Below the pieces are notes generated by a model. It did no database searches and was not told where the DNA came from. It saw only the letters and a program-made list of their open reading frames with translations. DNA of 55,825 nucleotides. Source: Candidatus Yanofskyibacteriota bacterium (GTDB lineage Bacteria; Patescibacteriota; Minisyncoccia; 2-02-FULL-40-12; GWA2-44-9). The DNA lies in assembly GCA_016185505.1 (NCBI GenBank), contig JACPNL010000010.1:1-55825 (forward strand), in the 5' to 3' direction. Shown here in pieces: positions 1,785 to 46,853 of this stretch; position 1 is the first letter of the stretch; the number at the start of each line of letters is the position of its first letter. Both the position numbers and the translations under genes were made by a program.

Positions 1785-3665
1785 TTATTCCACAGTTGCC
1801 CGAATTCGGCGGATTCCGGCGCTTACGGATTCTTCTTTGGTTATTTTGAACTTGCCTATCTCGGCAGTGTTTGAAACATGAGGTCCTCCGCACAATTCTT
1901 TAGAAAAGAATTGTCCTGAGCTGGTCGAATTAGAGAGTTCGCGGTTAAACGGCTCAACGGCTTTATCCGTTGAGCCGTTTATTGAATTATCGGTTGTTTT
2001 GGGACCGATCGTATAAACTGTTACGCGATCAGGATATTTTTCTTTGAAAAACGCTAAAGCGCCTGATTTTATCGCATCTTCATAAGACATTTCGGTTTTA
2101 GTAACCGGCAGTTCTTTTTTTACAGCATCGTTAACCATATCCTCTACTTGCTTGAGTTCCTCGAGTGTTAATTTACGCGGGAATGTGAAATCAAACCTCA
2201 ACCGTTCCGGGGTTATATCAGAGCCCTGCTGTTTCACCTCTTCTCCAAGAATTTTTCTCAATGCTGCGTGAAGCAAATGTGTAGCGGTATGAAGACGGGT
2301 TTTCTTTTTCATCTCTTCGGCATTGGCGGCGGTCAAATCCCCTTCCGTTATCATGCCATGTCCACCAAATTTTTTCTCCGCTCCGGCGCGGGATATTTCT
2401 TGATGTTTTCTAAATTCCTCATCGAAATTCTCACGAGAAAGCTCTGTTGTTTTTTCTTTTCCTAATTCTTTAATAACTTCAAAAGGTAGGCCGTAACTTT
2501 CGTATAGTTTAAAGGCGTTCTCGGCATTTACGGATGGCATCTTTCCAAGCTCCTTTAGCCCTTGAGATAATGTCTTTTCAAATTTTTCTTTTTCTCGGTC
2601 AAACTCATGAATTATTAAATCGGCATTCAGTTCGGGATAATATTGCCCATAGATCTCTAATATTTTCGCAAAAATATCATGCATTAAAGATAGGTCAGAC
2701 CTGTGGATAAACGACTTCGCAAGTCGTTTATCCACAGGTGGGGTGGATTGAGTGGCGGTATAAAAATAAGTTATCACTCTCCTCATTAGCCGGCGCAAAA
2801 CATAACCCTGCTCTTTGTTTGACGGCCTGACCCCGTCGGTGATAAGAAATGCGATGGCCCGTGAATGGTCGGCGATAATTCTTTTAGCTCTAATATCTAA
2901 CTCCGAGGGCGCGAGTTTGATTATCGGTTCCAAAAGATCCGTTTCAAAAATATTTTTAACTCCCTGTACAACCATAGCAAGACGCTCTAATCCCATACCG
3001 GTGTCTATGCCAGCTGGTTTTAAGTGTTTAAATTTTGAAGGGTCGGTTTCTTTGAGCATTTGCTCTCTATTCCCTTTATAATAAAATTCGTTGAAGACGA
3101 TATTCCAAATCTCAACTCCGTCCACATATATTTCTGTTGTCGGACCGCATGGACCCTCATTCCCGGTCGGGCCCCAGGTGTTATCCTCAATACCCATTTT
3201 CTTAACCTCAATTGCGACGTTGTTGTTTTTAGCTATTTCTTTCCATATCAATTCTGATTCTTCATCTGCGGGCATACCTTCCGAACCGCTGAAAACAGAA
3301 ACGTAGTCAACCTTGAGTCCCAGTTCTTTTGTAATAAATTCGTATGCCCAAGTGATGGATGCTTCTTTCCAATACCCACCAAAAGAAAAATTGCCAAGCA
3401 TTTCGAAAAAAGTGAGATGTGATTCGTCTCCAACTTCGTCTATGTCCGAAGTTCGCATTGATTTCTGAATTGAAACAGTATTCAAGGAACCGAAATCCTT
3501 CATCGCGTCGGCCTCGCCGGTATAGTAGGGCTTGAACTGTTGCATTCCGGCGGTTGTGAAAAGCACCGACGGATCAGTTGGCAAAAGAGAAGATGACTCC
3601 ACCCACTTATGGTTTCTCTTCTCAAAAAAATCTTTAAATTTTTTACGTATCTTTTGATGTGTCAT
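1785..3665 (-). CDS. alaS: Alanyl-tRNA synthetase, short form
   Basis: Charges tRNA-Ala. The N-terminal class II catalytic core is clear (FTTAGMQQFKPYYTG, HLTFFEMLGNFSFGGYWK, GPTGNEGPCGPTTE). It is followed by the tRNA-recognition helices and the editing domain with zinc-ligand motifs HTATHLLH and ELCGGPH. It stops soon after the editing domain at 626 residues, against about 870 in E. coli, so the C-terminal C-Ala/DHHA1 region is absent. The gene carries foreign in-frame stretches: PPVDKRLAKSFIHR from the 41-bp DnaA-box palindrome at 2699-2739, and a block near the C-terminus (GSTDKAVEPFNRELSN then STSSGQFF) from a 34-bp palindrome, a CTTCGA-type word and another small palindrome. Start: the ATG complementary to 3663-3665. 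Confidence 0.95.
   Translation of the reverse strand: MTHQKIRKKFKDFFEKRNHKWVESSSLLPTDPSVLFTTAGMQQFKPYYTGEADAMKDFGSLNTVSIQKSMRTSDIDEVGDESHLTFFEMLGNFSFGGYWKEASITWAYEFITKELGLKVDYVSVFSGSEGMPADEESELIWKEIAKNNNVAIEVKKMGIEDNTWGPTGNEGPCGPTTEIYVDGVEIWNIVFNEFYYKGNREQMLKETDPSKFKHLKPAGIDTGMGLERLAMVVQGVKNIFETDLLEPIIKLAPSELDIRAKRIIADHSRAIAFLITDGVRPSNKEQGYVLRRLMRRVITYFYTATQSTPPVDKRLAKSFIHRSDLSLMHDIFAKILEIYGQYYPELNADLIIHEFDREKEKFEKTLSQGLKELGKMPSVNAENAFKLYESYGLPFEVIKELGKEKTTELSRENFDEEFRKHQEISRAGAEKKFGGHGMITEGDLTAANAEEMKKKTRLHTATHLLHAALRKILGEEVKQQGSDITPERLRFDFTFPRKLTLEELKQVEDMVNDAVKKELPVTKTEMSYEDAIKSGALAFFKEKYPDRVTVYTIGPKTTDNSINGSTDKAVEPFNRELSNSTSSGQFFSKELCGGPHVSNTAEIGKFKITKEESVSAGIRRIRATVE
1892..1914. repeat. 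Small palindrome within alaS
   Basis: ACAATTCTTT / AAAGAATTGT arms with a 3-base loop, next to a TCCTGAGCTGGTCGAA word. Together they add residues just before the conserved FSKELCGGPH. Confidence 0.6.
1947..1980. repeat. Palindrome within alaS editing domain
   Basis: Perfect 14-bp arms (AAACGGCTCAACGG) around a 6-base loop, in frame. It encodes part of the extra STDKAVEPF stretch that interrupts the editing domain before the zinc-binding CGGPH motif. Confidence 0.75.
2699..2739. repeat. DnaA-box palindrome inserted in frame in alaS
   Basis: 19-bp perfect arms around a 3-base loop (CGC). Each arm holds TTATCCACA, the consensus DnaA box, in opposed orientation. Near-identical copies lie at 20371-20409 and 21188-21230 in mnmA. 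Confidence 0.9.
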
Positions 3666-20202: not shown

Positions 20203-21360
20203 TTACAATATTATTCCCCCTCCGAGAAGCTGCTGACCTTTATAAAATACGGCTGATTGACCGGGGGTTACGGCTGACTCTGGTTTTTTGAACACGATTT
20301 CGCCACTATTTTTTACAACCGCTTTAGACAACGGCGCCCTATAGCGCGTCCGCGCATCCAACTCCTCGCCCCTGTGGATAAACGACTTGCGAAGTCGTTT
20401 ATCCACAGGTTGAGCTATTGGATTTATCCAGTTTATAGCGGTTAATTTGAAATTTTGAGAGAGTAGATCTTTCTTCGAACCGACGTAAATGATGTTATTT
20501 TTGATATCTTTCCTAACAACAAAATAGGGGCCCTTGCCGTTCTTTATATCCAGACCGTGCCTTTGGCCGATGGTATAGTAGAACACGCCATCGTGTTGTC
20601 CAACAACACGCCCTGAGCGAGCAAAACGAGTCGAATGGGCAACATCCAACAAGATAATATTTCCGATCTTTGGCTTGATATAATTTTTTAAAAATTCTTT
20701 CATGTTTAACGGCCCGATGAAGCACACTCCCTGGCTATCTTTCTTGTCAGCCGTCGACAGGCCGAATTTTTTAGCCATTCTCCTAACCTCCGGTTTTGTA
20801 TAGTCACCAATCGGAAAGAAGCAATGTTTCAACTGCCTCTGGGTTAAGGTCCAGAGAAAATAGGATTGATCTTTGTTCTGGTCAACAGCTTTTAATAATT
20901 TATAGTCATTAATTTTTAATTTTTCATTTTTATTTTTTAATTTTCTTATGTAGTGTCCCGTCGCAATGTAATCCGCTCCTTCTTCCAATGCCTTCTCCAA
21001 AAATAGCCCGAACTTGATATGCTTATTGCACATTACATCCGGATTAGGCGTTTGACCGGTTTTATATTCTCGTATCATGTAGTCAGCCACTTCTTTTTTA
21101 TATTCTTGTGAAAAGTCCCACGTCAAAAGAGGAATGCCAATTTTTGCCGCTACCCGCATCGCGTCTTCTCGGTCTTGCTTCCAAAGACACCTGTGGATAA
21201 ACGACTTCGCAAGTCGTTTATCCACAGGTGGGCTCCATGGTTTCATAAAAACACCGGTTACATCGTAACCTTGTTTTTTCAACAGAGCAGCAGCCACAGA
21301 AGAGTCAACTCCTCCGGACATAGCAACATAAATCTTTTGTTTTTTAACTTGACGTTTCAT
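20203..21360 (-). CDS. mnmA: tRNA-specific 2-thiouridylase MnmA
   Basis: Puts sulfur on wobble U34 of Lys, Glu and Gln tRNAs. AMSGGVDSSVAA is the PP-loop; MCNKHIKF and GVCFIG carry the two catalytic cysteines; FYTIGQRHGL is present. At least four foreign in-frame stretches occur: PPVDKRLAKSFIHR after the MKPW segment and QPVDKRLRKSFIHR near the C-terminus (both DnaA-box palindromes, opposite orientation), VAHSTRFARSG from a CTCAGG-type word, and a Lys/Asn-rich stretch KNKNEKLKINDYKL from AT-rich spacer words. All keep the frame and avoid the catalytic motifs. Confidence 0.95.
   Translation of the reverse strand: MKRQVKKQKIYVAMSGGVDSSVAAALLKKQGYDVTGVFMKPWSPPVDKRLAKSFIHRCLWKQDREDAMRVAAKIGIPLLTWDFSQEYKKEVADYMIREYKTGQTPNPDVMCNKHIKFGLFLEKALEEGADYIATGHYIRKLKNKNEKLKINDYKLLKAVDQNKDQSYFLWTLTQRQLKHCFFPIGDYTKPEVRRMAKKFGLSTADKKDSQGVCFIGPLNMKEFLKNYIKPKIGNIILLDVAHSTRFARSGRVVGQHDGVFYYTIGQRHGLDIKNGKGPYFVVRKDIKNNIIYVGSKKDLLSQNFKLTAINWINPIAQPVDKRLRKSFIHRGEELDARTRYRAPLSKAVVKNSGEIVFKKPESAVTPGQSAVFYKGQQLLGGGIIL
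20371..20409. repeat. DnaA-box palindrome in mnmA (copy 2)
   Basis: CCTGTGGATAAACGACTT GCG and complement, 18-bp arms. The loop is GCG on the + strand, so the copy is inverted relative to the other two. It holds two opposed TTATCCACA boxes. Confidence 0.9.
21188..21230. repeat. DnaA-box palindrome in mnmA (copy 1)
   Basis: 20-bp perfect arms CACCTGTGGATAAACGACTT around CGC; two opposed TTATCCACA boxes; in frame. Confidence 0.92.
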
Positions 21361-23369: not shown

Positions 23370-23580
23370 ACATAATTAACCTAATTATTCTAATTAACCT
23401 AATTGACCTAAATAAATCCTCCCGATTTTGTCTGCTTCGCAGAAACAAAATCGAGGATCCTCGATATTCGCAAGCGAATATCGGGACAATGACCTAATAA
23501 CCAATGCCTGAAGGTTTTAGACATTAAAAATTAGGTATTATTTAGAATAATTAGAGCAATTAGAATAATTAGAATAATTT
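23370..23580. repeat. AT-rich dispersed repeat, copy A (interrupted)
   Basis: TTAACCTAATTATTCTAATT...GACCTAAATAAATCC on the left and TTATTTAGAATAATTAGAGC on the right, forming a long imperfect stem between minus-strand genes. Copies at 42899-43040 and 46272-46416. This copy contains the 67-bp element at 23420-23486. Confidence 0.75.
23420..23486. repeat. Double-hairpin element with TCGAGGATCCTCGA core
   Basis: TCCCGA, a hairpin arm pair (TTTTGT...ACAAAA), core TCGAGGATCCTCGA, a second hairpin (TATTCGC/GCGAATA), TCGGGA. The uninterrupted repeat at 46272-46416 reads straight through this point, defining the element ends exactly. Confidence 0.85.
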
Positions 23581-23581
23581 T

Positions 23582-35467: not shown

Positions 35468-35517
35468 AAACAAACCGCCGTAAAACTAGCAATTGCTAGT
35501 TTTACGGCGGTTTGTTT
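35468..35517. repeat. Perfect 50-bp palindrome between divergent genes
   Basis: 25-bp arms meet without a loop at AGCAATTGCT, between the HAD gene (-) and the C39-like gene (+). Confidence 0.85.
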
Positions 35518-35553
35518 CAAAATAGCCGATTTTCTGATATACTTTCACAAATA

Positions 35554-36390
35554 ATGAGAAAAATATCACTATATTTAATACTACTAATAACGGCTCTTGG
35601 GGCCGGTATTTTTATTTCTTTCATTGCTTTAAGGTCAATAAATAGGCCCGCTATCCGCCCTAGCTCGCTACCGGGGTTTGAATCAGACCCAAACGTCCCG
35701 ACTTCGTCTCCTTCGGAGCAACGAAGTCGAGGATCCTCGATTTCTCAGCCCCGCCAAGGCGGGGGAGAAATCGGGACGACTCAAACTCCAACAAAGACAC
35801 CTGGTCCCAACACAATAATTTATGACGTCCCCTTTACTCCCCAAGCGCCTTTCAGCGAATGGAGTAATCCCAAACTAAGCAACGGCTGCGAGGAGGCCTC
35901 AGCTCTTATGGCTATGTCGTGGGTAAGAGGTACAACGTTCACGCAAGAAGAAGCAAGGCGAGAAATTATCGCCGTTTCCGACTACGAATTGGCGAATCAC
36001 GGCGTGTATCTGGATACATCTTCCCAAGATACCTTTGATTGGATATTCAAAGAATATTACGGATATAACAAGGTAGAACTTTTCTACGATATTTCCGTTG
36101 AAGACATTAAAAAAGAATTGCGCGGCGGCAATTTGGTCATCGTGCCCGTGAACGGGCAGGAACTGCATAACCCCTACTACACACAGCCCGGGCCTCTGCG
36201 CCACAAAGTCGTAATAATCGGATACGATCCGGACAACAAAGAATTCATCACCAATGACCCCGGCACCCGGCTCGGAAAGCAGTACCGCTACCCGGAACAA
36301 GTGTTATTCAACGCGATACACGACTATCTGACCGGCAATGACCTCCCGTTGCCGCCAAAGCGCACCGCGATGATAGTTGTAAAAAAATAA
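35554..36390 (+). CDS. Exported C39-like cysteine peptidase
   Basis: About 278 residues from ATG 35554; the track start at 35512 is a TTG inside the palindrome. N-terminal membrane helix (LYLILLITALGAGIFISFIA), a Ser/Pro-rich linker, then the peptidase C39-like domain: YDVPFTPQAPFSEWSN, NGCEEASALMAM (catalytic Cys), LRHKVVIIGYD (His) and FITNDPGTRLG (Asn/Asp). The linker contains an 81-bp in-frame double-hairpin element (35696-35776, encoding RGSSISQPRQGGG). Probably anchored with its enzyme domain outside. Convergent with the AlbA_2 gene, only 3 bp apart. Confidence 0.8.
   Translation: MRKISLYLILLITALGAGIFISFIALRSINRPAIRPSSLPGFESDPNVPTSSPSEQRSRGSSISQPRQGGGEIGTTQTPTKTPGPNTIIYDVPFTPQAPFSEWSNPKLSNGCEEASALMAMSWVRGTTFTQEEARREIIAVSDYELANHGVYLDTSSQDTFDWIFKEYYGYNKVELFYDISVEDIKKELRGGNLVIVPVNGQELHNPYYTQPGPLRHKVVIIGYDPDNKEFITNDPGTRLGKQYRYPEQVLFNAIHDYLTGNDLPLPPKRTAMIVVKK
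35696..35776. repeat. Double-hairpin element, copy 2, in frame in the peptidase
   Basis: TCCCGA, hairpin CTTCGT...ACGAAG, core TCGAGGATCCTCGA, hairpin TTTCTC..CCCCGCC..GAGAAA, TCGGGA. Length 81 bp (27 codons). Same ends and core as 23420-23486, with unrelated hairpin contents. Confidence 0.88.
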
Positions 36391-42893: not shown

Positions 42894-42898
42894 AAAAA

Positions 42899-43040
42899 AT
42901 TAACCTAATTATTCTAATTGCTCTAATTGACCTAAATAAACCCTAATGACCGAATAACTAATGACCAAAGGTTTGAGGATTAGACATTAGAAATTGTGAT
43001 TTATTTAGAATAATTAGAATAATTAGGTTAATTAGAATAA
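42899..43040. repeat. AT-rich dispersed repeat, copy B
   Basis: Same TAACCTAATTATTCTAATT...GACCTAAATAAA start and TTATTTAGAATAATTAGAAT end as copies A and C, between the GtrA-like gene and dnaX. Confidence 0.75.
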
Positions 43041-43041
43041 T

Positions 43042-43695
43042 TTATTTTCGGAATACTGTCATCTTGACTCCTATAAAACTTACCACTAACGCCGCTGCCG
43101 AACCGGCGATTCCGCCGGCATTGGCCCACTGATCACTGCTCAAGTCGAACATTGGATCTAAAAAATTTACTAAACCAGAAGCTATTCCAATATTCACAAG
43201 TCCGGCGATAATGTAAGCAGTAAAAAATTTTCCCAACTCTGCGGCGTTAATTTTGTTTTCCTCGCCAGAGGCGTTAACGCCCACCAGAGGCGGGTCAACC
43301 TCTGGTTGAGAAAATACCCAGAATTTGTTCCAAAAATAACTGTGAAATGTTGCTATAATAAACGCCGACGCGACGAAAATTGAATACCATAATCCCTTAT
43401 TTATATCCGACCAAGATATTAAAACATTCAAAATCCCAAAATATACCGCCGCGTTGGTAAAACCAACAGCAGAAAATTTGCCGAACTGACCGAAGAATGC
43501 CAGCCACCGCCCCAAAAAATATCCAAGATTTACCCCCAGTATCCAAAGAATGGGAACAAAAATAATCAACCAAGCATAAGATACACTGACAAATTCCGGC
43601 AATTCAAGAAAAACAAATATCCGCCACGCGATCAAACCGGTTATGAGTCCGGTTATTACTGAAAAATAAAAATCTTTGCGAGAAAATTGATGCAC
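43042..43695 (-). CDS. GtrA-like polytopic membrane protein
   Basis: 217 residues with about six membrane helices. FGKFSAVGFTNAAVYFGILN and SYFWNKFWVFSQ match the two signatures of GtrA-like proteins (FlippASe candidates for lipid-linked sugars). An extra pair of helices precedes this domain. PPLVGVNASGEENK is probably an in-frame insertion made of two CCAGAGGCG words. Lies between the ATPase gene and dnaX on the same strand. Confidence 0.7.
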   Translation of the reverse strand: MHQFSRKDFYFSVITGLITGLIAWRIFVFLELPEFVSVSYAWLIIFVPILWILGVNLGYFLGRWLAFFGQFGKFSAVGFTNAAVYFGILNVLISWSDINKGLWYSIFVASAFIIATFHSYFWNKFWVFSQPEVDPPLVGVNASGEENKINAAELGKFFTAYIIAGLVNIGIASGLVNFLDPMFDLSSDQWANAGGIAGSAAALVVSFIGVKMTVFRK

Positions 43696-43830: not shown

Positions 43831-46266
43831 CTACCCACTACTACCTACTGCGCTGAATTTAGATTTTATCTCCTCCTCTACCTCTTCCCTTGGCCGGCCG
43901 TATTTTAATTTTGACATTTTGTTTATTTCCAGAGCCAATTCTCTGTCACCGGCGCCAAATACCTTTTCGGTATCAACTTTAATATTGAAAGGGCGGGTCG
44001 TCTGGCCACCAACCAATAAACTAGCATAAGCGTTTAAGTTGTCTATGTTGACGAGATCTTGCGGAGTGAAAACCGGTTCAAATTTATTCTTCATAAACTC
44101 GGCGTCATCCGGACCAATCCTGAAAGAAATAATGGAGCCGACATTGCCGAAAACAGCGTCTCTAATCCCTTCCTTAAGTTGTTTTATAAATTGATGGGCA
44201 ATAACCAGATCGAGGCGATACTTTCGCGCTTCCGATAATATCGTTGAAATACTGTCAGTAGTGAAATTCTGAAACTCGTCAATGTAAAGATAAAAATCCT
44301 GGCGCGTTTCATCCGGAATATCCACGCGCGATAAAGCCGCCATCAAGAGCTTGCCGACAATGATCATACCGAGGAGATCTGCGTTCAGAGCGCCTATTTT
44401 GCCCTTGGACAGATTAACCACCAGAATTTTCCTGTTATCCATCGATTCCCGAAAATTTAACGCGCTCTTTTTCTGATTTATAATCGGACGCAAAAATTCG
44501 TTGTAAACAAACGAGGTTATTTTTGAAGAAATATAAGGGGCCATGTTTGCCAAACTTTGCTCGCCTTGCGCTTTCTGCGCTTCAAGTTCCCAGAATTCTC
44601 TAACCAAAGGATTTGTCTCGCGAGAAAGTTTGTCTTTTCTGTAAGCGTCGTCAACCAAAACTCGTGAAATATCAGCCAATACAGGAATTTCATAACGATA
44701 ATCGTCAAGCAAAAGCAAAGCGGAATTCTTGAAATATTTTTCAAACATCGGTCCGCCGGTTGTTCTTAAGTCATACAATTTATTAAATATCTCAAAGAGT
44801 TCGTCTATAACCATTGTTTTTTGCTCGGGATGATCAGGGTTTATCTCAAGCATATTCAAACCCATCGGCCGGGAAATATCACCGGGATCAAAATAAACAA
44901 CATCATTAGTTCTGTCTTTGGGAATAATAGATAAAACAAATTCAGCAAATTCTCCGTGCGGATCAATCACGCAAACCCCTTTGCCGTTCTCTATGTCCTG
45001 CCGAATCATTGACTCCATAAAAACCGACTTGCCCGTGCCGGTCTGACCGATAATATACAAATGCCTTCGCCTGTCGGCATCACTCATTTTGACTAATGTT
45101 TCAACGCCTCGAAAAATATTTTTGCCTAAAACAATCCCCTCCTGTGGCAGATTCGGCGGTGGTTCGGCCGGCTTAGAACGCAAGAATTTTATCCTCGGCG
45201 CAAGAGTGGACGCCAACGGAAAGTGATATAAACTGGTTATTTCTTCCGAGGACAGAAACGTAGACTGCGAATTGTCAAAAAGCCGGAAAGAAAAATTAAA
45301 TAATAACTTTTTTAGCGTTCTGGACGACATATTGATTATTTTTAGACTGTTCATCTCGCCGGCCGCGAACTGCGCTAGTGAACCGTCTATGTCCCCAAGC
45401 AGTTGTTTAGCCCTCATCTCGCTACCAGCCGAAACAACCACCCTTATATTTGTATCAAAAAGCGGCTTCGTCGCCTTGGACTGAATGTTTTTGATTATCT
45501 CCTCGTCAAATGGCGTAACAACACGAAGTTGTTGGTTGTCAGTTGTTGGTTGTTGGTCTTTCTTCGGCTTATGCTTAGCTCGAGACAACGCCTCTGAAAA
45601 CTTATACCCCGATTGCATTTCACGAGCTGTTTTTTGAGCAAGTTTCCGCATATCATCCCGATGCGACGGCCGCATCAATATCTGAACAGCCGCACCTTCG
45701 CCTTCTTTTTCAAGTTTGGACAAAGAAGTGGCTATCTCGCTTAATGGATCGGCCTGCAAATTCTGATATGTCTTGAAGGGTAATAGTGGAATTTTGGACA
45801 GTTTCACATACGCGCCCAGCGCGACGCCGTCAGGATTGAATATATTATAGTCCTTAACTTTCTCCACCTCCGCGGTAGGGAAAAATCCATGAACTTGTTT
45901 TTCAAATACCTGCTCATACGTCTTGGGAACAGCTATGTAGAAAAATATCTCCTCGCCAACATGATGAACCGCCATTTCAAGGGAAATATACGGCTCGCCA
46001 TAAATAAATTTATTCCAACCCCTTGAGTGGATATTGGAAAAAGACGAATACAATTGCTCCATTACGGAAATAAGGTCTTTTTCGGTTTTCTGTTGCGCTT
46101 GCCCTGATCCTGTCGAAGGATCGCGCGGAAGAGTTATCAAAAAAAGTGACATATTGAGCGCCCTTGCTATGTGACCCTTGGTCCTCAAGGAACCAAACAA
46201 CACCAAAGCGGCGACAAAGATAATGGCGATGACAACTAAGTAAGTAATTATCAAAAACAGAGACAA
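43831..46266 (-). CDS. VirB4/TraC-HerA-type conjugation ATPase
   Basis: 811 residues. N-terminal membrane helix (FLIITYLVVIAIIFVAALVLF), ~350 residues of upstream domain, then a P-loop ATPase: YIIGQTGTGKSVFMESM (Walker A), GVCVIDPHGEFAEF, DFYLYIDEFQNFTTD (Walker B) and LDLVIAHQFIKQL (sensor/Gln motif). This fits the type IV secretion coupling/VirB4-like family used by these bacteria for pili or DNA transfer. Two in-frame word insertions: RDPSTGSGQAQQ near residue 50 and KKDQQPTTDNQQLR near residue 230. The 46407 gene lies just upstream. Confidence 0.82.
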   Translation of the reverse strand: MSLFLIITYLVVIAIIFVAALVLFGSLRTKGHIARALNMSLFLITLPRDPSTGSGQAQQKTEKDLISVMEQLYSSFSNIHSRGWNKFIYGEPYISLEMAVHHVGEEIFFYIAVPKTYEQVFEKQVHGFFPTAEVEKVKDYNIFNPDGVALGAYVKLSKIPLLPFKTYQNLQADPLSEIATSLSKLEKEGEGAAVQILMRPSHRDDMRKLAQKTAREMQSGYKFSEALSRAKHKPKKDQQPTTDNQQLRVVTPFDEEIIKNIQSKATKPLFDTNIRVVVSAGSEMRAKQLLGDIDGSLAQFAAGEMNSLKIINMSSRTLKKLLFNFSFRLFDNSQSTFLSSEEITSLYHFPLASTLAPRIKFLRSKPAEPPPNLPQEGIVLGKNIFRGVETLVKMSDADRRRHLYIIGQTGTGKSVFMESMIRQDIENGKGVCVIDPHGEFAEFVLSIIPKDRTNDVVYFDPGDISRPMGLNMLEINPDHPEQKTMVIDELFEIFNKLYDLRTTGGPMFEKYFKNSALLLLDDYRYEIPVLADISRVLVDDAYRKDKLSRETNPLVREFWELEAQKAQGEQSLANMAPYISSKITSFVYNEFLRPIINQKKSALNFRESMDNRKILVVNLSKGKIGALNADLLGMIIVGKLLMAALSRVDIPDETRQDFYLYIDEFQNFTTDSISTILSEARKYRLDLVIAHQFIKQLKEGIRDAVFGNVGSIISFRIGPDDAEFMKNKFEPVFTPQDLVNIDNLNAYASLLVGGQTTRPFNIKVDTEKVFGAGDRELALEINKMSKLKYGRPREEVEEEIKSKFSAVGSSG

Positions 46267-46271
46267 GGTAA

Positions 46272-46416
46272 AATTAAATTATTCTAATTTCTAATTAACC
46301 TAATTGACCTAAATAAATCCCAATGACCTAATGCCTAAAAACTTATTTCGCTATTTGGGTATTAGACATTAGTCATTATTTAGAATAATTAGAGCAATTA
46401 GAATAATTAGGTCAAT
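46272..46416. repeat. AT-rich dispersed repeat, copy C (empty site)
   Basis: Reads AAATAAATCC directly into CAATGACC, the uninterrupted form of the site that in copy A holds the 67-bp double-hairpin element. Confidence 0.8.
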
Positions 46417-46853
46417 TTTTCCAGTTTCTTTCTTTCCACTAACATATTATAAAGTTCATCCACCAAAACATCATGGAACGCGTCTATGAGAGCGGGATTA
46501 TTAGACCTTACGGCTTCTTTGACGCCGTCGTCCAGTCCTTTATTGAAAACCATATTAATAAGCGCCTGAACTTTTTCTTTCAACTCCGGCAAAACATAAC
46601 TTAACGCGCTGTCGTCAAGTCCAACTTGGCCGTCGTCCTGTTGCGGCCGAGTCGAACTGGGCTGGGGCTTGGTTGGCGACGGTTGATACTGTGGGATTTG
46701 CTGTTGAATTTTTTCTCCGATAATTTCACGCAGGGTTTCTTTTTCGTGTGGCGATTCCGGCGCCACCTCGCCATGTCCCAAAGCCGCGCGCTTTTCGGCG
46801 ATCTGTTGTTCCAGTTGCGCTATCTCTTGTTCAATAGTCGGCTGATTTTCCAT
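46407..46853 (-). CDS. Hypothetical partner of the conjugation ATPase
   Basis: 148 residues: N-terminal coiled coil (IEQEIAQLEQQIAEKRAALG), a Pro/Gln-rich linker (QQQIPQYQPSPTKPQPSS) and a C-terminal helical domain (LPELKEKVQALINMVFNKGL, ALIDAFHDVLVDELYNMLVE). No membrane segment. It directly precedes the ATPase gene, separated only by the dispersed repeat, and probably works with it. Family not recognised. Confidence 0.65.
   Translation of the reverse strand: MENQPTIEQEIAQLEQQIAEKRAALGHGEVAPESPHEKETLREIIGEKIQQQIPQYQPSPTKPQPSSTRPQQDDGQVGLDDSALSYVLPELKEKVQALINMVFNKGLDDGVKEAVRSNNPALIDAFHDVLVDELYNMLVERKKLEKLT

Follow-up and report, generated by a model that had tools for sequence, protein, structure and literature searches.

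A precise 67-bp insert in an AT-rich palindromic repeat

The window analysed here, a 55,825-nt stretch of a Parcubacteria, Yanofskybacteria-like genome, contains two double-hairpin elements, one within an AT-rich palindromic repeat and one within a coding sequence (Table 1). The initial annotation had described the first as a 67-bp insert, beginning TCCCGA and ending TCGGGA, that sits precisely in one copy of the repeat without a target duplication. This description was borne out: the locus reads AAATAAATCC, then the element (TCCCGA...TCGAGGATCCTCGA...TCGGGA), then CAATGACC, and its junction is precise by comparison with empty copies of the repeat. A search for further empty sites, as had been proposed, yielded about 28 distinct copies that are unbroken across AAATAAATCC/CAATG. 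The repeat, of about 146 bp and present in tens of copies, three of them in the window, belongs to a large multicopy palindromic family represented by 96 BLAST pieces in the same genome. Two copies only are filled, the one in the window and one on contig 25 (L037). Element and insertion point agree between them, and these two copies probably descend from one insertion. As about 28 copies are unbroken and only two are filled, we regard the filled state as derived, in a comparison between paralogous copies within one genome.

Table 1. Elements, their parts and their hosts in the window
Feature	Position	Strand	Remarks
Mini double-hairpin element 1	23420..23486	.	67 bp
Half-hairpin 1 of element 1	23420..23457	+	TCCCGA, 6-bp stem, inner stem, 2-nt bulge, stem, TCG(A)GGA
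Half-hairpin 2 of element 1	23458..23486	-	Inverted version of the half-hairpin 1 architecture
Palindromic core of element 1	23451..23464	.	TCGAGGATCCTCGA
AT-rich palindromic repeat, filled copy	23374..23581	+	Recipient of element 1
AT-rich palindromic repeat, empty copy	46275..46420	+	About 28 others in genome
AT-rich palindromic repeat, third copy	42895..43044		
Mini double-hairpin element 2	35696..35776	.	81 bp, in frame in coding sequence
Palindromic core of element 2	35727..35740	.	
Host gene of element 2	35512..36390	+	Secreted Peptidase_C39-like protein

In-frame insertions in protein-coding genes

Element 2 has the same ends and core as element 1 and different hairpins, as had been noticed from the window itself. 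It occupies a variable linker of its C39-peptidase-like host protein, to which it adds about 27 residues. Whether such an insert is ancestral at its site was examined on this gene, and a same-genus orthologue was found to lack the element and to have a different linker. At least eight elements of this genome lie in frame, and the eight counted with both ends all have lengths divisible by 3; the count, taken from reading frames of at least 200 codons on the longer contig stretch, is partly so by construction, as an open frame was required. Their hosts include TGT (tgt), NusA (nusA), a tRNA ligase (aminoacyl-tRNA synthetase), an exonuclease, a SpoU methylase and the C39 protein.

Other palindromes also lie in coding sequences of the window. 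The palindrome TGTGGATAAACGACTTCGCAAGTCGTTTATCCACA, which contains the DnaA-box-like TTATCCACA, is in frame at 2702-2736 in a predicted alanyl-tRNA synthetase (ORF 1785-3665) and twice, at 20373-20407 and 21192-21226, in a predicted mnmA (ORF 20203-21360); these copies encode PVDKRLxKSFIHR. The same palindrome family occurs three times around a RAYT gene (L043), while a second RAYT gene (L042, G000:C29) is flanked by a differing palindrome, CCTGTGGAGGGCGGCCCTCCACAGG. Another short protein-lengthening insertion, an in-frame CCTGATCCTGTCGAAGG-like repeat encoding DPSTGSGQ, is found at about 46100-46160 in ORF 43831-46266.

A conserved frame with exchangeable hairpins

The elements share the frame TCCCGA-hairpin 1-TCGAGGATCCTCGA-hairpin 2-TCGGGA. 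Exact TCGAGGATCCTCGA cores occur 28 times in the 681 kb of this genome, for which we worked on stretches around matches, and a reversed-pattern control occurs 0 times; a chance origin of the core was therefore rejected. Likewise, 60 exact TCCCGA-N-TCGAGGA halves were found in the genome and none with the reversed pattern, four of these exact halves lying within the window against 0.04 expected. The whole elements of the window fold with z-scores of -6.7 and -7.4 relative to shuffled sequences.

Each half-hairpin has TCCCGA at one foot and TCG(A)GGA at the other. Between these feet, an outer stem of about 6 bp encloses the inner stem with its loop and, next to the returning arm, a 2-nt bulge. 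The bulge lies on the core side and is most commonly TT or CT, and TCG(A)GGA contributes a single bulged A. Among 204 distinct halves, selected blind to pairing, the first five stem positions are paired in 93%, compared with 38% when arms are shuffled between halves, and the same set contains 67 different stem sequences. As the ends are mutually complementary and the core is self-complementary, we infer that the element could form a four-way junction.

The ends are conserved together with the core. Both ends are exact at 23 of the 26 distinct cores of this genome, and at 15 of 20 cores from relatives that were found by the core alone. The suggestion that the element is modular, with exchangeable hairpins, gained support from hairpins that have been swapped as units; its alternative, a structure-specific copying process, is conceivable. 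In six copies, all enclosed by one and the same outer palindrome (CCTGTGGATAAACGACTT...GAAGTCGTTTATCCACAGG), the left hairpin is constant and the right hairpin is of two kinds. Further, 13 halves of at least 24 nt recur with different partner halves. In addition, some loops hold another copy of the element. When ends with matching stems were sought within 900 bp of each of the 183 distinct cores that the fetched loci contain, 148 elements with both ends were obtained, with a median length of 84 bp (range 42-406).

Distribution and target sites

Further elements were sought by scans blind to cargo, using core plus TCGGGA in the contig collection (genome_contigs) and the core alone in relatives. 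The former pattern is present in at least 117 stretches, mostly from Patescibacteria and Bacteroidota among the matches listed, the Patescibacteria including Yanofsky-, Sung-, Magasanik-, Azam- and Portnoybacteria and others; a few G+C-rich matches lack paired ends and appear chance-like. The core is patchily distributed, being present in 27 of 113 relatives, and the genome studied here has the most copies. Viral carriers were considered and rejected, as two IMG/VR core matches have G+C-rich flanks and non-pairing interiors and thus resemble chance matches. No 16S or 23S rRNA insertion site was found in the 700-bp flanks of the 183 cores.

At 112 sites of mini-elements, the flanking bases are G before and C after the element in 36%, against a background of 4%, and TTG/CAA is matched at four or more of six positions in 42%, against 5.5%. 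Many insertion sites are loops, namely those of tRNA arms and palindromes and the AT-rich repeat.

Hairpin loops carry GIY-YIG genes and tRNAs

Twenty-four half-hairpins exceed 70 nt. Nine of these contain a GIY-YIG ORF alone, ten a complete tRNA and one, nested, both, four being unexplained; for the long halves of L100, L108 (with two cores) and L200, we identified no cargo and counted none. The element L190, for example, is laid out as TCCCGATTTTGT-AAATTTTAATCTTTC-(GIY-YIG ORF)-GAAAGATTAAAATTT-AA-ACAAAA-TCGAGGATCCTCGA-hairpin-TCGGGA. In two elements, L216 (400 bp) and L228 (406 bp), nuclease and tRNA occupy opposite hairpins. The genome containing the window has 36 tRNA genes for 36 anticodons, each represented once in an assembly that is 95% complete, and its tRNA-Lys(CTT) and tRNA-Glu(CTC) were found only as cargo.

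The cargo ORF encodes a compact GIY-YIG nuclease (Pfam 5e-18; PF01541 in four of four) with invariant Y, YxG, R, H and E columns and an AF2 pLDDT of 92. Among solved structures, UPF0213 and SLX1, a nuclease of branched DNA, are nearest to it, and I-TevI follows. Related GIY-YIG genes are present in 96 of 113 relatives, and a tRNA is found no more than 300 bp away at 16 of the 30 best loci, compared with 0 of 20 RAYT controls; because the search profile was built from element-linked proteins, its top matches are biased towards elements. Across the 113 relatives, presence of the nuclease and of cores gave no clear signal, cores being found in 25 of 96 genomes with and two of 17 without the nuclease. 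The genome containing the window has no GIY-YIG gene of the element family, its sole PF01541 match lying in a 479-codon frame, presumably uvrC, and the nuclease is therefore not currently supplied there.

Several neighbouring arrangements were also seen. GIY-YIG genes beside tRNAs that lack a recognisable double-hairpin frame were found at L217, L220-L224, L229, L231 and L234-L236, several of them with partial tRNA repeats on both sides, and these genes may represent a wider tRNA-homing family in Patescibacteria. At L114 and L157, both from Bacteroidota, a GIY-YIG ORF comes immediately after a truncated tRNA 5' piece whose D-loop contains a mini-element, an arrangement suggesting that tRNA-homing GIY-YIG genes occur in Bacteroidota, too. 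The split tRNA-Lys at L028 has an additional two-hairpin insert in its D-loop, to the right of the element. The ends of this insert differ from those of the element (CCCCGAC..GTCGGGG and AGCCGAC..GTCGGCT), and it may belong to a second, similar family.

Cargo-bearing elements split genes and carry or adjoin replacements

Rejoining the flanks of tRNA-carrying elements yielded a tRNA with the anticodon of the cargo in all six cases that fold (Glu CTC at L036 and L218; Thr CGT at L076 and L086; Ala CGC at L216; Ala TGC at L228). At L028 (Lys), L096 (Ser) and L204 (Glu), the rejoined tRNA did not fold, and the anticodons agree by eye. The elements enter the split tRNAs in the D-arm (after positions 22-24) or in the anticodon loop (34-35). 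Cargo and split copy are only 67.6-78.9% identical (cargo divergence 21-32%) and thus are not recent duplicates. At L028, L228 and the related L216/L219, the split copy is nearest to ordinary tRNAs of related genomes (86-96%), and the cargo is nearest to cargo or variant tRNAs of other lineages (about 87%). The exception is L036 (G000:C25:22560-22725). There it is the cargo that comes closer to the intact tRNA-Glu found in genomes of the same genus, with 84% identity to that of genome G013 against 70% for the split copy. Either gene conversion or the capture of the native gene could account for this case.

Elements that carry the nuclease also split conserved protein genes: gatB after 'YEPVIGI/L' (L102 and L045), tpiA after 'VANW' (L148) and a Zn-ribbon gene after 'CQNC' (L199). 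In all of these, gatB being hit twice, an intact, diverged gene start follows about 10-16 nt past the element. The L190 element splits its gene close to the 3' end.

As read from these loci, the full form shows a predicted nuclease in one loop and optionally a complete tRNA in the other, inside a split gene. Judged in the same way, the split gene appears replaced, either by a cargo tRNA whose anticodon matches or by a complete start of the gene that lies directly downstream.

Alternative explanations

Four other readings of the elements were weighed. In the first, the element is REPIN-like and is mobilised in trans by a RAYT/TnpA-REP or an IS200/IS605-like HUH transposase acting on single-stranded hairpins. 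Such an enzyme would agree with the lack of target duplication, the bulged subterminal hairpins, the defined target and the preference for hairpin loops, and several element copies do lie within a palindrome flanking one RAYT gene. The search for a RAYT/TnpA-REP or other HUH enzyme that the initial annotation had called for turned out unfavourably, as the two PF01797 genes of the genome are flanked by palindromes other than the element. Moreover, a TCCCGA..TCGAGGA half was found at none of 22 RAYT loci (these two and 20 others), and five of 12 element-bearing genomes, which are drafts, gave no PF01797 match. The invariant feet are TCCCGA and TCGAGGA and the GT[AG]G foot is missing, and this reading leaves the GIY-YIG and tRNA cargo unexplained. 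We therefore consider it unlikely, if the best of the four.

The second dispenses with a dedicated enzyme and has replication template switching at foldback DNA make, swap and copy the hairpins and palindromes. Stems that are perfectly paired yet variable, swapped hairpins, nested copies and insertion into palindromes are what it would produce. Template switching alone, however, would not give identical ends and core across at least two phyla, and neither a shared target preference nor specific functional cargo would be expected from it; we hold it to be improbable.

A third reading, an RNA-level insert (intron-like or an RNase III-type intervening sequence) that is cut out of transcripts and so leaves the split tRNAs functional, draws on the six split tRNAs that fold once rejoined and on reports that rRNA genes of CPR bacteria contain inserts, some encoding GIY-YIG proteins and others short and uncharacterised (PMC11270868). 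It would render the rescue tRNA or gene start needless and sits poorly with in-frame elements in TGT, NusA and an aminoacyl-tRNA synthetase; furthermore, an Rfam search of six element loci returned only tRNA matches at gathering thresholds and no intron match. It thus appears very unlikely. A conventional MITE descended from a DDE transposon whose terminal repeats are TCCCGA, suggested by the inverted short ends, the internal deletion derivatives and the many copies, is hardly credible, given the lack of target duplication relative to the paralogous empty site and interiors of tRNA or GIY-YIG, with no transposase between the paired ends of the long elements read.

A homing-and-rescue model

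Our preferred reading, which we judge somewhat better than even, is that the 67-bp insert is a cargo-less mini-element of a homing-and-rescue family, whose hairpins are cargo slots. The nuclease, a relative of the structure-selective SLX1/UPF0213 enzymes, would cut uninterrupted alleles at TTG/CAA-like sites, and repair of the cut allele would copy the element in. Cells would then survive only through the rescue borne by the element, which would also hinder its loss. Mini-elements would arise by loss or exchange of loop contents and would persist at harmless sites, such as AT-rich repeats, palindrome loops and in-frame protein positions.

In the least certain step, the same nuclease may move mini-elements in trans to non-homologous sites. 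This step is the weakest because the genome studied here has many mini-elements, which predominate there, and no such nuclease. Homing normally requires flanking homology, and homing therefore leaves mini-elements at unrelated sites unexplained; they may have spread through a past or transiently supplied nuclease or through another system.

Taken as a whole, the family has perhaps an even chance of being a new class of mobile element, with a four-way-junction-like frame and two interchangeable slots, that would act in Patescibacteria, and possibly in Bacteroidota, as a natural drive of the homing-and-rescue type. A structure-selective GIY-YIG nuclease would disrupt essential genes for tRNAs and proteins, the element would furnish their replacements, and mini-elements would spread through genomes and extend proteins without loss of frame. 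Provisionally, it appears to be undescribed, as we found no description in the open full-text literature, with preprints and subscription journals outside the scope of that search.

If the model is correct, bacteria hold a natural counterpart, of about 400 bp, of engineered cleave-and-rescue drives, and an element that replaces essential tRNA genes would impose foreign tRNAs on its host. In Patescibacteria, the model would also account for tRNA genes that are split, for lone foreign isoacceptors and for palindromic insertions that keep the reading frame, and it may be relevant to the GIY-YIG inserts and the short inserts in patescibacterial rRNA genes, for which an explanation is lacking. Finally, the elements would provide a compact system in which to test structure-specific insertion of DNA with exchangeable cargo.

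Comparison with known systems

IS200/IS605 single-strand transposons have subterminal hairpins, make no target duplication and use a short preferred target, and the elements share all three features. Unlike these transposons, they contain no Y1 transposase, and their hairpins are cargo containers that abut in the core. Rickettsia palindromic elements are small, palindromic and inserted in frame in protein genes of a reduced genome, and the mini-elements described here likewise lie in frame in coding genes. The two appear to differ in sequence and architecture, and no cargo genes are known from Rickettsia palindromic elements.

REP and REPIN sequences associated with RAYT resemble the elements in consisting of inverted pairs of bulged hairpins in many copies with no obvious target duplication. 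A GT[AG]G foot defines canonical REPs (PMC6006769); the elements have neither this foot nor a linked RAYT, and differ further in their variable stems, gene-bearing loops and cross-phylum occurrence.

CPR rRNA genes contain GIY-YIG inserts that match no intron and many short, ORF-less inserts near stem-loops (PMC11270868). The host group is the same as that of the elements, and no hairpin frame or rescue is described for these inserts (PMC11270868). That the two are identical is only a suggestion, no fetched element lying in 16S or 23S.

The seg family of phage T4 comprises free-standing GIY-YIG homing endonuclease genes, SegB being located near tRNA genes (PMC13096335). Like these, the family presented here places a small nuclease gene at a split target, including tRNA genes, and would spread among alleles. 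A nuclease gene lies inside the interrupted gene at L045, L102, L148, L199, L216 and L228, and not in the mini-elements. In contrast to free-standing genes, the gene resides in a hairpin loop, within a structured element whose ends and core are conserved, a second cargo slot is available, and nuclease-free mini-elements occupy many sites.

Cleave-and-Rescue and home-and-rescue systems are engineered gene drives (PMC7951863, PMC7968924). They share with the elements a nuclease, here predicted to cut, that disrupts an essential gene, and a linked, divergent functional copy. Both a nuclease and a replacement lie within the disrupted gene at L216 and L228, where the function of the replacement is taken from the predicted intact tRNA. 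Unlike the engineered drives, the elements are natural, bacterial and about 400 bp long, have no guide RNA, and usually provide rescue by a tRNA with the same anticodon.
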